Below are positions 56,926-60,986 of a DNA stretch of 64,000 bases, piece by piece. Position numbers and translations under genes: made by a program. The stretch comes from Amycolatopsis sp. FBCC-B4732 (GTDB taxonomy: Bacteria; Actinomycetota; Actinomycetes; Mycobacteriales; Pseudonocardiaceae): NCBI RefSeq assembly GCF_023008405.1, contig NZ_CP095376.1, positions 9,032,501-9,096,500 of the forward strand, given 5' to 3'. Position 1 is the first letter of the stretch; each line of letters opens with the position of its first letter. A model generated the notes under the pieces. The model did no database searches, was not told the origin of the DNA, and saw only the letters and a program-made list of their open reading frames with translations.

Positions 56926-58158
56926 TCAGATGTCGAGCTGGCGCACGCCCGTCTCGCGCAACGCCACCCGGCCGGCCGTCGCCCGTCCGCGCAGGCGGAC
57001 GATCTCGTGCGGCTGCAAGCCGATCGCGACGCCGAACGCCTCCACGTCGGGGAAGCCGCCCTGCCGCTGACGCAGCTCCAATGCCGTCGTCACCCGCGAC
57101 GGTGACAGCCCCGGCAACGACGCCAGCTCCGGGCCGGACGCCGTGTTCACGTCCACCGCCGCCGGAGCGGGCGCAGGCGGCGGCGCCAAAGGGGCCAACG
57201 GGGTCAACGGAGCCACCGCAGCCGGTACGAAAGCCTCGATCAGGTCGTTCTCCCGCAGGTCCCGCGTCGCCAGCCCGACCGTGAACACCCGCGTCCCCGC
57301 GCTGGTCCGCACCGCCACGCCGTCCCGCGCCAGCGACAGGATCCGCAGGTCCGGGGAAACGACCGTGCTCCGCTCGTTGAACGTCGTCCCGATCGGCCGC
57401 AGCACCCGCGCCGGCGACCCGGTCGTGAACGCCGCGCCGCGCCCCTCCGGCACCTCGACCGCCGCCACCACCGAGCCGTTGCCCAGGTCGGTGACGCCGT
57501 GCACCACCACGGACCCCTCGCGCCGCTCCAGGAAGTCGTGCGCGGGCTCCTGGAACGCCACCAGTGCGTCGCCGGCGAGCGGCGGCACCTCGCACTGGAA
57601 GCCCAGCAACACGGTCCCCGGCGGCCCGGGCGGCAGCTCCTCGAGCGGGCCCGCCGGGCCGAACAGCCCGAGCACCCGCATCGGCTCGCCGGCCGGTCGC
57701 CCGCCCCGCACCAGCGAGACCAGCGCCCCGAAGCGCAGCACCCCTTCGCGAACGCCCACCGAAGCGTGGAACCCGGTCAGCTGGTCGAAACCCGGCGCCA
57801 GCACCGCACCGACGCCGTCCTGGCGGCTGGTGTCCGGGCCGACGGTGTCGTCGGTGTACAGCTCCAGTGAGTCGCCCTTCGCGAGGTCGCGCCGCCCGAC
57901 GGCGACGAAGACGTCCTTGAGGAAGCCGGCGTCCGTGACCGCCTCGACGTCGCTGGAGAAGAACTTCTTCCGCACCATGATCCCGAGGCGCAGGTTGTCC
58001 GCGAGGACGCGGTCGCCGCGCCGCAGCCGCGCGCGGGCGCCGCGGACCGCCCGGCCCGCGCTGACCTGGCCGCCCGGAAGCTCGCCGAGGCCGGGGAGGG
58101 TGACGGAGTCGTTGAGCGCCTTGCCGAACTCGATCAGCCCGACCCTGACCTCGGTCAC
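56926..58158 (-). CDS. Helix-hairpin-helix protein of the AAA/radical-SAM operon
   Basis: A 410-residue protein. The last 60 residues are a ComEA-like helix-hairpin-helix (VDVNTASGPELASLPGLSPSRV, then PDVEAFGVAIGLQPHEIVRLRGRA), a fold that binds DNA or, in enzymes, other proteins. The first 340 residues form an unfamiliar beta-rich region (VLADNLRLGIMVRKKFF, DGVGAVLAPGFDQLTGFHASVGV, SVVVHGVTDLGNGSVVAAVEV) with two similar halves. No signal peptide. GTG 58158 overlaps the stop of the DUF1257-like gene. It is the last gene of a coupled five-gene operon. Confidence 0.8.
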   Translation of the reverse strand: MTEVRVGLIEFGKALNDSVTLPGLGELPGGQVSAGRAVRGARARLRRGDRVLADNLRLGIMVRKKFFSSDVEAVTDAGFLKDVFVAVGRRDLAKGDSLELYTDDTVGPDTSRQDGVGAVLAPGFDQLTGFHASVGVREGVLRFGALVSLVRGGRPAGEPMRVLGLFGPAGPLEELPPGPPGTVLLGFQCEVPPLAGDALVAFQEPAHDFLERREGSVVVHGVTDLGNGSVVAAVEVPEGRGAAFTTGSPARVLRPIGTTFNERSTVVSPDLRILSLARDGVAVRTSAGTRVFTVGLATRDLRENDLIEAFVPAAVAPLTPLAPLAPPPAPAPAAVDVNTASGPELASLPGLSPSRVTTALELRQRQGGFPDVEAFGVAIGLQPHEIVRLRGRATAGRVALRETGVRQLDI

Positions 58159-58598
58159 GACGTGGCGGCCAGCGTGACGCTGATCGACTGGTCGGCGTTC
58201 ACCCGCTCGGACTCGACGACCATCCCGGTCGACGCCGCGCGGGCCTTCAGCCGCGCGAGCACCGCCTGCTGCACCTGTGCGGCGTACGCCTCGTCGACCG
58301 ACAGCACCAGCCGCTGGGCTTCGGCCTCGGCCAGCCCCGGGCCGTCGACGTGCGCCACCTGGACGCCTTCGGGGCCGTAGCCGAACGTGATCCGCCGTCC
58401 CTCCCACGCGGCGACGACGGAGTTGCCGTCGTCGGTGACCTGCGCACGCAGCCCGGTGAGCGCGCGGGCGAGCAGGTCGCGGTGCCGCATCCGGGTCCGC
58501 ACGGTGACCACGCCCGGCTGCGCCTGCGTGTGTGCGGCGATCGTCGCGGCGTTGAGCTGGGCCAGTGCTTCGCTGCGCAGCTTCAGCGTGACGCTCAT
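58155..58598 (-). CDS. DUF1257-like (Ycf35-like) protein
   Basis: A 147-residue protein tentatively placed in DUF1257. The pattern is an early HRDLLARALTGLRAQVTDD, then RRITFGYGPEGVQVAHVDG, an Ala-rich VDEAYAAQVQQAVLARLKA helix and a last strand (ADQSISVTLAATS). DUF1257 is the family of plastid/cyanobacterial Ycf35, which co-occurs with DUF2997 and the AAA protein Ycf46, exactly the partners found here. Function unknown. ATG 58598 overlaps the radical-SAM stop (ATGA). Confidence 0.65.
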   Translation of the reverse strand: MSVTLKLRSEALAQLNAATIAAHTQAQPGVVTVRTRMRHRDLLARALTGLRAQVTDDGNSVVAAWEGRRITFGYGPEGVQVAHVDGPGLAEAEAQRLVLSVDEAYAAQVQQAVLARLKARAASTGMVVESERVNADQSISVTLAATS

Positions 58599-59170: not shown

Positions 59171-59367
59171 TGCTGCTGCGTCGCCGTGTTCTCGACCTCG
59201 GCGGTGGTCCGCCGGTAGTCCTCGGTGAACTCCGACGACACCGTTTCCGCGCCGAGCAGGTCCTCGAGCAGCGGGATGTAGTCGAGGCACTTGGACCCGG
59301 TCACGCCGTGCGTCTCGGCGCTGATCGAGCCGTCCTTCGCGATGGTGACGGTCACCCGGTGCGTCAT
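59158..59367 (-). CDS. DUF2997 protein
   Basis: A 69-residue protein matching DUF2997: the start VTVTIAKDGSISAETHGVTGSKC, a single Cys27, DYIPLLEDLLG and an acidic middle. It has a small alpha/beta fold and unknown role. In several bacteria it lies next to DUF1257 and AAA+ genes. Its ATG overlaps the AAA+ stop (ATGA at 59364-59367). The lone Cys near a radical-SAM gene is worth attention, since it could be a modification site (inference). Confidence 0.88.
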   Translation of the reverse strand: MTHRVTVTIAKDGSISAETHGVTGSKCLDYIPLLEDLLGAETVSSEFTEDYRRTTAEVENTATQQQWNS

Positions 59368-60986
59368 ACGTCGATCGTCCTTCCCCTCGGGGACTCCGGC
59401 GGCGCCGGAACACGGGCCGCGGTGCCGGCTTCGGCGGTGGTGTCCGTCGCCGCGACGGCCCGGGTCTCGGCCCAGTTCCGGATGGCCAGGATCTCGTCGG
59501 CCTGGGTGACCGACAGCGGCACGGTCGACTTCACCGCGCGCACGAGGTCGTCGCGGCGCAGCGGCCGCTTCTCCGCGAACGCGTCGACCAGCCCGGACAG
59601 CACGGCCTGCTCGATCTCGGCGCCGCTGTAGCCCGCGCTGACCTCGGCGAGCTCGGTGAACAGCGCGTCCTCCAGCCGCAGCTCACTGGCGACGAACGCG
59701 TCGGTGACGCGCTTGGCCAGGTGGATCCGCCAGATCGCGGCGCGCTCGGGCGCCGAAGGCAGGTCGACGAAGAAGATCTCGTCGAAGCGGCCCTTGCGAA
59801 GGAACTCCGGCGGCAGCGAGCCGACCTGGTTCGCGGTCGCCATCACGAACACCGGCGCCGACTTCTCCTGCATCCACGACAGGAACGTGCCGAACACGCG
59901 CCGCGCGGTGCCGCCGTCACCCCCGCCGCCCGCGCCCGCGAGGCCCTTCTCGATCTCGTCGACCCACAGCACGCAGGGCGCGATGCCTTCCGCGGTGCGG
60001 ATGACCGTGCGGATGTTCTTCTCGCTGGAGCCGACGAGCCCGGCGAAGACGCGCCCGAGGTCCAGCCGCAGCAGCGGGAGCCGCCACATGTTCGCGACGC
60101 AGACCGCGGACAGGCTCTTGCCGCAGCCGGGGACGCCGGTCAGCAGCAGGCCCTTCGGCGCCGCGAGGTTGTACGCCGACGCGGCGGGCGTCCACGTGCC
60201 GGTGCGCTTGGTCAGCCAGCGCTTGAGCCGGTCCAGCCCGCCGACGGCGTCGAAGCTCGTTTCGGCGGGCACGATGTCGAGCATCCCGGACCGCCGGACG
60301 GCTTGGCGCTTCTCGGCGAGGATCAGCTCGAGGTCGCTGGGGTCGAGCCCACCGCCTTCGACGAGCGCCCTGGCGAACGCGTTCTCGGCCTCGGGTAGTG
60401 TGAGGCCCCGTGCGGCGGCGACGATCATGTCCCGGTCGTCGCGGTCGATGCTGATCCGGACGTTCTGCCGGTGCGCGGCGACCATGCCGTCCAGCAGCTC
60501 GCCGATCTGGCGCTGATCGGGCAGCGGGAAGTCGACGACGGTCGCGTCGTGCTCCAGCTCCGGCGGCACCGGCAGGGACGGCGACACGAGGATCAGGCTC
60601 AGCGGCACGGGCCGGGTCTTGAACGTGGCCGCGAGCTCCCGCAGCCGCCGCACGACGTCCGGGTCGGGCCGGTGCCCGCCCTCGGAGACCAGCGACGGGT
60701 GCAGGTCGGCGAAGACGAAGACGGCGGGCTCGCTCCAGCCGTAGATCCGCTCGAGCGCGGCGGCCGCGGTGCGGGTGTCGCTGATCGGCGGCCCGCCCGC
60801 GGGCGCGAGCCCGGTGGTCGACGACCAGACGTACACCCGCCGCGGCGTCCGCAGCCGCTGCTGGTCTTCCGCGACCGCGCGGATCTCCCGCAGCACCCGC
60901 TGCTCTTCGTGCGTCTCGACGACCAGCAGCGGGTAGCGCGCCTGCAGCAACTGGGTCAGCTCGTCGCGAAACCCCTGGCCGGCCAT
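59364..60986 (-). CDS. AAA+ ATPase, Ycf46-like
   Basis: A 540-residue AAA+ protein with a non-ATPase N-terminal domain (1-240: RYPLLVVETHEEQRVLREI, then VYVWSSTTGL, FVFADLHPSL) typical of Ycf46-like proteins. The AAA core follows: Walker A GVPGCGKS (284-291), Walker B VLWVDEIEK (339-347), sensor 1 ATAN, arginine finger in RKGRFDE (397-403) and a C-terminal helical lid. It probably forms a ring that remodels a partner protein. It is the first gene of a coupled operon with DUF2997, radical SAM, DUF1257-like and HhH genes. Confidence 0.92.
   Translation of the reverse strand: MAGQGFRDELTQLLQARYPLLVVETHEEQRVLREIRAVAEDQQRLRTPRRVYVWSSTTGLAPAGGPPISDTRTAAAALERIYGWSEPAVFVFADLHPSLVSEGGHRPDPDVVRRLRELAATFKTRPVPLSLILVSPSLPVPPELEHDATVVDFPLPDQRQIGELLDGMVAAHRQNVRISIDRDDRDMIVAAARGLTLPEAENAFARALVEGGGLDPSDLELILAEKRQAVRRSGMLDIVPAETSFDAVGGLDRLKRWLTKRTGTWTPAASAYNLAAPKGLLLTGVPGCGKSLSAVCVANMWRLPLLRLDLGRVFAGLVGSSEKNIRTVIRTAEGIAPCVLWVDEIEKGLAGAGGGGDGGTARRVFGTFLSWMQEKSAPVFVMATANQVGSLPPEFLRKGRFDEIFFVDLPSAPERAAIWRIHLAKRVTDAFVASELRLEDALFTELAEVSAGYSGAEIEQAVLSGLVDAFAEKRPLRRDDLVRAVKSTVPLSVTQADEILAIRNWAETRAVAATDTTAEAGTAARVPAPPESPRGRTIDV

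Follow-up and report, generated by a model that had tools for sequence, protein, structure and literature searches.

Ycf46, Ycf35 (DUF1257) and DUF2997 form a core trio already known to be conserved in cyanobacteria and in plastids of the red lineage. In a review (PMC4284462), DUF2997, ycf35 and fed7 are grouped into a single ferredoxin gene cluster, and inactivation of slr0374, which encodes Ycf46, lowers EcaB carbonic anhydrase activity (PMC7496141, citing Jiang 2015). The same core families are found in an operon of Amycolatopsis sp. FBCC-B4732, together with a radical S-adenosylmethionine (SAM) protein and a protein having a helix-hairpin-helix (HhH) domain, partners that the description of the cyanobacterial cluster does not name. 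The operon lies in a stretch of 64,000 nucleotides (the window), which maps to 9,032,501-9,096,500 of one contig of 10.19 Mb. All five open reading frames (ORFs) are on the minus strand, from 60986 to 56926, and overlap head to tail as a prior sequence-only reading of the window had claimed: AAA/DUF2997 by 4 bp (59364-59367), DUF2997/radical SAM by 13 bp (59158-59170), radical SAM/DUF1257-like by 4 bp (58595-58598) and DUF1257-like/HhH by 4 bp (58155-58158).

The operon proteins also resemble members of other described systems. In its AlphaFold2 (AF2) model the AAA protein has a tandem D1-D2 fold in which residue 2 aligns with p97 residue 208. It differs from p97/Cdc48/VCP in that the D1-like domain has no Walker A motif by eye, the model has no p97-type N-domain ahead of D1, and both the tail sequence and the partners are other ones. 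The AAA domain (PF00004, 5e-27) also resembles IetA of the IetAS anti-phage system (3e-23), but the protein falls far below the IetA NCBIfam cut-off (74.3 versus 510 bits), no protease-like gene is among the five, and the near full-length match, N-terminal domain included, is to phrog_8638 (1.5e-141, residues 4-521). The radical-SAM protein shares the CxxxCxxC motif and a family match with the NrdG and pyruvate formate-lyase activases, but scores below the cut-offs of the NrdG model TIGR02491 (98.6 versus 126.1 bits) and of PFLA. In agreement with the sequence-only reading, no glycyl-radical enzyme to be activated was found: the Amycolatopsis genome gave zero matches to NRDD (PF13597) and zero to Gly_radical (PF01228). 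We therefore reject a classical NrdG role, and the candidate substrates are those inside the operon.

Taken singly, the tandem AAA ATPase and the radical-SAM activase fold belong to known kinds. The five-gene system could be assigned to no described system, and no description of the gene set or of its tail (below) was found in the open-licence PMC literature, which lacks most subscription papers and hence does not prove novelty. The reading we favor, to which we give slightly less than an even chance, is that the operon encodes a self-contained remodelling machine, in which an HhH partner would be read through its C-terminal tail, the DUF1257-like and DUF2997 proteins would act as adaptors, and the radical-SAM enzyme would mature one component.

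Recurrence of the five-gene set

An alignment of the AAA protein was scanned against one genome per species and the best 80 of 567 confirmed relatives were taken; because these were chosen by similarity to the window's AAA protein, the census counts are not population frequencies. Twenty loci from sampled genomes, plasmids and phages (L010-L029; L-numbers denote loci, L013 being that of the window) were added by choice and L012, which has no AAA gene, was dropped. Gene profiles built in this analysis were run over all ORFs of the loci; gene calls were the longest ORFs, and hence some N-termini are too long. The window was included in the locus census, the overall tail count and the analyses of loci below 80% AAA identity (tail fit and Mantel), and was left out of the tail counts by context and of the DUF2997 tyrosine recount.

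The sequence-only reading had proposed counting co-occurrence of the five families, and all five were found together in 36 of the 68 loci having at least 3.5 kb on both sides. The other well-flanked loci comprised nine with the trio AAA-DUF1257-DUF2997, seven with the trio plus radical SAM, 12 with AAA alone and four partial sets. Overall, the five-gene set was present in 47 of 99 AAA loci. Judged by their names, these 47 include Actinomycetota, Bacillota, Gastranaerophilales, Bacteroidota (Tenacibaculum, Tannerellaceae), a Planctomycetaceae and an Armatimonadetes bin. Since several of them come from metagenome bins and some of the contigs are short, the taxon given to a contig may be wrong. 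The radical-SAM and HhH genes, which had been read as additions in one actinomycete, belong to this widespread set. Nor is gene order fixed, as had been supposed. The window has AAA-DUF2997-radicalSAM-DUF1257-HhH, Dactylosporangium and a Rhodococcus plasmid have AAA-DUF1257-DUF2997-HhH-radicalSAM, and Gastranaerophilales have HhH-radicalSAM-AAA-DUF1257-DUF2997. Relatives are also carried by plasmids and phages. Inter-locus distances correlated for all ten gene pairs among 28 loci below 80% AAA identity (Mantel r 0.47-0.74, shared ancestry being ignored).

A chance grouping of unrelated genes might be argued from the rarity of DUF2997, which was found in two of 150 genomes of the family, but recurrence in permuted order across phyla rules this out for practical purposes. 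In the phylum, DUF2997 was found in three of 396 genomes, two of them over the cut-off (both counts include the Amycolatopsis genome itself); the third protein, that of L012 (genome G407), has no adjoining AAA gene. Nearly all high-identity named relatives are from Amycolatopsis. A set confined to Amycolatopsis was rejected, although DUF2997 is rare in family and phylum genomes; five loci of the genus have a common neighborhood. No sixth conserved gene was evident beside the five-gene loci among the (at most 25) neighbor clusters listed, which were Amycolatopsis neighbors, common domain families, antisense ORFs, or T2SSE/TPR genes of loci lacking HhH.

The AAA-DUF1257-DUF2997 core has a second conserved neighborhood. 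In eight trio loci (L090, L091, L094, L098, L101, L106, L107 and L109) a conserved gene for a T2SSE/PilT-like ATPase (PF00437, 3.3e-49 in L098) follows on the same strand, often joined by a TPR protein (L106), and four of the eight hold a longer radical-SAM gene. Ten of 80 viral contigs fetched (L113, L114, L117, L119-L121, L123, L124, L135 and L141) carry the trio and radical SAM with HhH not detected, L119-L121 looking like one virus, and viral contig L110 has all five genes. In L011 (G183), a contig of a bin that was placed in the same phylum, perhaps wrongly, the trio adjoins a SWIM protein and genes that by eye look RadC-like and mobile. The gene immediately downstream of the operon in the window (56202-56891) belongs to the EspG family (ESX secretion), and the genes further downstream are common to five loci of the genus.

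A C-terminal tail common to the ATPase and its presumed partner

The AAA and HhH proteins of the window end in GRTIDV and GVRQLDI, a likeness that the sequence-only reading missed. Other pairs of ends are GGRTVDF/GGRILDI (L038) and GGRTIDF/GRRLDL (L083), and all 76 Amycolatopsis-type HhH relatives (P0021-P0096, among 120 of 139 matches listed) end in GVRQLDI or GIRQLDI. The tail pattern, [RK]x[ILVFM][DE][hydrophobic]-end, was formulated once the first alignments had been inspected. Over all loci it fitted 62 of 100 AAA and 64 of 66 HhH proteins versus one of 75 DUF2997, none of 75 DUF1257-like and none of 64 radical-SAM proteins, and 13 of 9126 other ORFs. When up to three extra residues were permitted, the tail was on 26 of 28 AAA and 27 of 28 HhH proteins of the loci below 80% AAA identity. 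In viral contigs the pattern fitted 36 of 80 AAA proteins versus 11 of 8425 other ORFs. In Geminocystis, Planktothrix and Limnofasciculus (L017, L025, L105), by contrast, the ends of the AAA proteins do not fit it.

In the Amycolatopsis genome the codon pattern GRx[ILVM]D-hydrophobic-TGA matched once, at the AAA gene end, and GxRx[ILVM]D-hydrophobic-TGA once, at the HhH gene end, whereas the reversed-pattern controls of both gave zero matches; these strict patterns cover Asp and TGA stops only. A relaxed pattern lacking Gly gave eight matches versus five in its reversed control. Only the strict pattern is informative, since several of the six other relaxed matches end plausible genes.

The tail is short, terminal, predicted to be disordered (AAA residues 521-540 have a predicted local distance difference test score, pLDDT, below 50), near-invariant and common to two otherwise unrelated proteins, which argues that it may be a docking tag. 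With up to three extra residues permitted, AAA tails were found in 44 of 46 five-gene loci, nine of 16 trio loci, four of nine loci with trio plus radical SAM, six of eight partial loci and four of 19 loci with AAA alone. In well-flanked loci they were commoner where DUF1257 and DUF2997 were found (40 of 51) than where they were not (three of 12), and thus these two proteins may help to read the tail. The p97 tail binds cofactors. In a similar way, the tail found here might serve the ATPase ring for self-docking and have been copied by the HhH protein to regulate or inhibit the ATPase, as its presence on both proteins and an AAA-client pair having no adaptor genes nearby (L049) would allow. 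We consider this quite improbable, given the scarcity of AAA tails where DUF1257 and DUF2997 are not found nearby, loci with AAA alone included.

The coordinates of the operon features are collected in the table. Nine D2 residues (G284, G287, G289, K290, D343, E344, N386, R397 and R400) are invariant in 90 aligned AAA sequences, and the predicted p97-like tandem fold is that expected of a remodeller, in line with the sequence-only reading.

Features of the five-gene operon (window positions)
Feature	Positions	Strand	Basis
AAA+ ATPase, phrog_8638 (Ycf46-like) type, 540 aa	59364..60986	-	tandem p97-like D1 (degenerate) + D2 (active)
N-terminal D1-like domain, residues 1-235	60282..60986	-	AF2 model, alignment to p97 208-763, sequence
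D2-like active AAA domain, residues 236-511	59454..60281	-	invariant residues, 90 aligned sequences
AAA C-terminal tail GRTIDV + stop	59364..59384	-	disordered in model
DUF2997 protein, 69 aa, Cys27 codon 59287-59289	59158..59367	-	PF11211 3.5e-16; G13, C27 invariant
NrdG/PFL-activase-like radical-SAM protein, 191 aa	58595..59170	-	PF13353 2.8e-31; nearest solved structure pyruvate formate-lyase activase 1.6e-20
CxxxCxxC cluster motif, C29/C33/C36	59063..59086	-	invariant in 41/41 aligned sequences
DUF1257-like protein, 147 aa	58155..58598	-	relatives and profile comparisons; N-terminus polar here, hydrophobic in many relatives
Beta-barrel + HhH protein, 410 aa, presumed client	56926..58158	-	HHH_3 2e-8; AF2 pLDDT 84.8
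EF-Tu/IF2 domain-II-like beta-barrel, residues 107-204	57547..57840	-	inside all-beta part 1-312
HhH domain, residues 335-392	56983..57156	-	HHH_3 match, AF2 model
HhH-protein C-terminal tail GVRQLDI + stop	56926..56949	-	single genome match to codon pattern

The tailed partners have swapped N-termini. In the model of the window's HhH protein the all-beta part is followed by a disordered linker, the C-terminal HhH domain and a disordered tail; the EF-Tu/IF2 domain-II-like barrel is the one clear barrel found, the rest of the beta part having been barely tested. The protein does not reach the comE subfamily cut-off (22.8 versus 152.35 bits). Outside the six Amycolatopsis-type loci, in which the HhH protein is less hydrophobic, 54 of 60 HhH proteins (one was too short) have a membrane-like stretch of mean hydropathy at least 1.6. 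The partner has a predicted membrane segment in most other loci examined and is a predicted soluble beta-barrel HhH protein in Amycolatopsis. Three HhH proteins carry GYF_2 (L051, L056, L065), and that of L071 has TPR repeats, its HhH being detected solely by the profile built in this analysis. Four tailed proteins that adjoin the AAA gene lack a Pfam HhH (L044:9172-9672, L049:11620-12390, L084:5595-6227 and L071:7809-8549); each has a hydrophobic stretch (1.92-2.34), and that of L071 also has Mrr_cat (3.4e-21). In the rumen-bin locus L055 (4299-9341) seven HhH proteins with similar tails look as if they had been duplicated.

Such interchangeable partners (membrane, nuclease, beta-barrel) on a constant HhH-tail module could be effectors of an immunity-like system, in which the ATPase and small subunits would sense something and release them. 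The swapped N-termini, the plasmid- and phage-borne relatives and the resemblance to IetA fit this unlikely alternative, as do nine PADLOC families (mad3, mad8, PDC-S02, AriA and others; one or two ORFs each) among 85 flanking ORFs, drawn from 140 selected neighbor ORFs and counted without a background rate. However, a Pfam scan recognized no effector domain in the Amycolatopsis partner, five loci of the genus (L010, L013, L030-L032) have the operon in a common neighborhood and, a weaker point, the Pfam families of the 85 flanking ORFs are mostly metabolic, transport and signalling (among the first 25 of 109 listed). Although conceivable, a defence island location is not supported by the 85 ORFs scanned.

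Candidate targets of the radical-SAM enzyme

The radical-SAM alignment comprised 40 of the 59 listed locus sequences plus that of the window, and in all 41 both the CxxxCxxC and GGEP motifs are invariant. The DUF2997 assignment proved genuine, with 59.2 bits against a gathering cut-off of 24.1, and all 65 aligned sequences have Gly13 and Cys27. Viral loci L116 and L159 each have one more DUF2997-like ORF, which lacks the Cys that is conserved elsewhere. For a possible homology of the radical-SAM C-terminus to DUF2997, comparison gave only 60% over 21 columns. Neither DUF2997 nor DUF1257 had a convincing sequence match among solved structures.

A Tyr at Cys+3 was present in 44 of 65 DUF2997 sequences with a nearby radical-SAM gene versus five of 34 without one, ancestry being ignored. 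For viral sequences alone the counts were six of nine versus none of 17, and for cell and plasmid sequences 38 of 56 versus five of 17. These are counts within the domain in which identical sequences were counted once and three motif-less sequences, L012 and the window were excluded. That the Tyr goes with a nearby radical-SAM gene is suggestive, no more. We reject Tyr30 as an obligatory target, because it is absent from nine of 47 five-gene sequences.

The DUF1257 assignment stood in part. The window protein itself had no Pfam match, to PF06868 or otherwise, but its relatives make a distant link: PF06868 was matched by 20 of 66 aligned family members at E <= 0.01 (best 1.3e-19). Separate profile comparisons carry more weight, because the profile that collected the 66 members had been seeded with both kinds. 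The actinobacterial five-gene set matched the other five-gene set at E 4e-25, and proteins annotated DUF1257 were matched by the other set (91%, E 9.5e-7) and by the actinobacterial set (66%, E 5.7e-5). By these comparisons the protein is a distant DUF1257 relative. Its N-terminus is less hydrophobic in Amycolatopsis-type loci, and on two actinobacterial plasmids (L014:5908-6333 and L015:6618-7043) DUF1257-like proteins have a CxxC (LCEKCK) past a hydrophobic N-terminus.

The radical-SAM enzyme might instead modify the tailed HhH protein, at its HhH or tail, with the ATPase presenting or releasing the substrate. In the well-flanked loci HhH is always accompanied by radical SAM (36 of 36) and HhH tails are nearly invariant, but AAA tails occur in trio loci lacking radical SAM and in viral contigs, 11 of the 68 loci have radical SAM without HhH, and the shorter loci L041 and L073 carry HhH with no radical SAM detected. 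We think this doubtful.

A proposed remodelling model and its reach

In the remodelling reading, the AAA protein would be a tandem ATPase of the p97/Cdc48 kind, its first ring degenerate and its second active, and the DUF1257-like and DUF2997 proteins would serve as its adaptor subunits. The HhH partner would be recognized via the disordered tail at its C-terminus, G-x-R-x-[ILV]-[DE]-hydrophobic. Since this tail is also present on the ATPase, a single receptor, which is probably an adaptor, could bring ATPase and partner together, and ATP hydrolysis would then remodel, extract or disassemble the partner. The radical-SAM enzyme would activate or mature one component, most likely DUF2997, a choice of target that is a guess and the weakest part of the mechanism.

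Several observations weigh against this reading. In two five-gene loci, L035 and L037, the AAA protein has no tail; since the stop is directly followed by the start of the next gene, the absence is real and no ORF-calling error. The AAA tails of trio loci without HhH argue that the tail does more than serve HhH partners. At L049 no DUF1257, DUF2997 or radical-SAM gene was found in the 21.5 kb examined, which speaks against an obligatory adaptor receptor unless the pair is a remnant or the genes are elsewhere; the L049 AAA tail is itself degenerate. Regarding DUF2997 as the target, Cys27 is retained where no radical-SAM gene is nearby, the two viral ORFs noted above lack it, and the Tyr is absent from some five-gene sequences. 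Loci L041 and L073 count here also, and the Mantel and Fisher values ignore shared ancestry.

More broadly, and tentatively, at rather below an even chance, we propose an undescribed widespread system in which a tail of six to seven residues is a portable address tag that would make any protein given it (membrane, nuclease, TPR or beta-barrel) a partner of a p97-like ATPase, the ATPase wearing the same tag, and in which the radical-SAM enzyme would mature DUF2997 at its Cys and often the nearby Tyr. The operon offers an experimental way into Ycf46, Ycf35 and DUF2997, families that range from phage to plastid and for which we found no assigned mechanism. For an orphan radical-SAM enzyme, it narrows the candidate protein substrates to a few. 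The shared tail sharply predicts which proteins bind one another and through which six residues, and hints at a recognition code for a bacterial p97-like ATPase.

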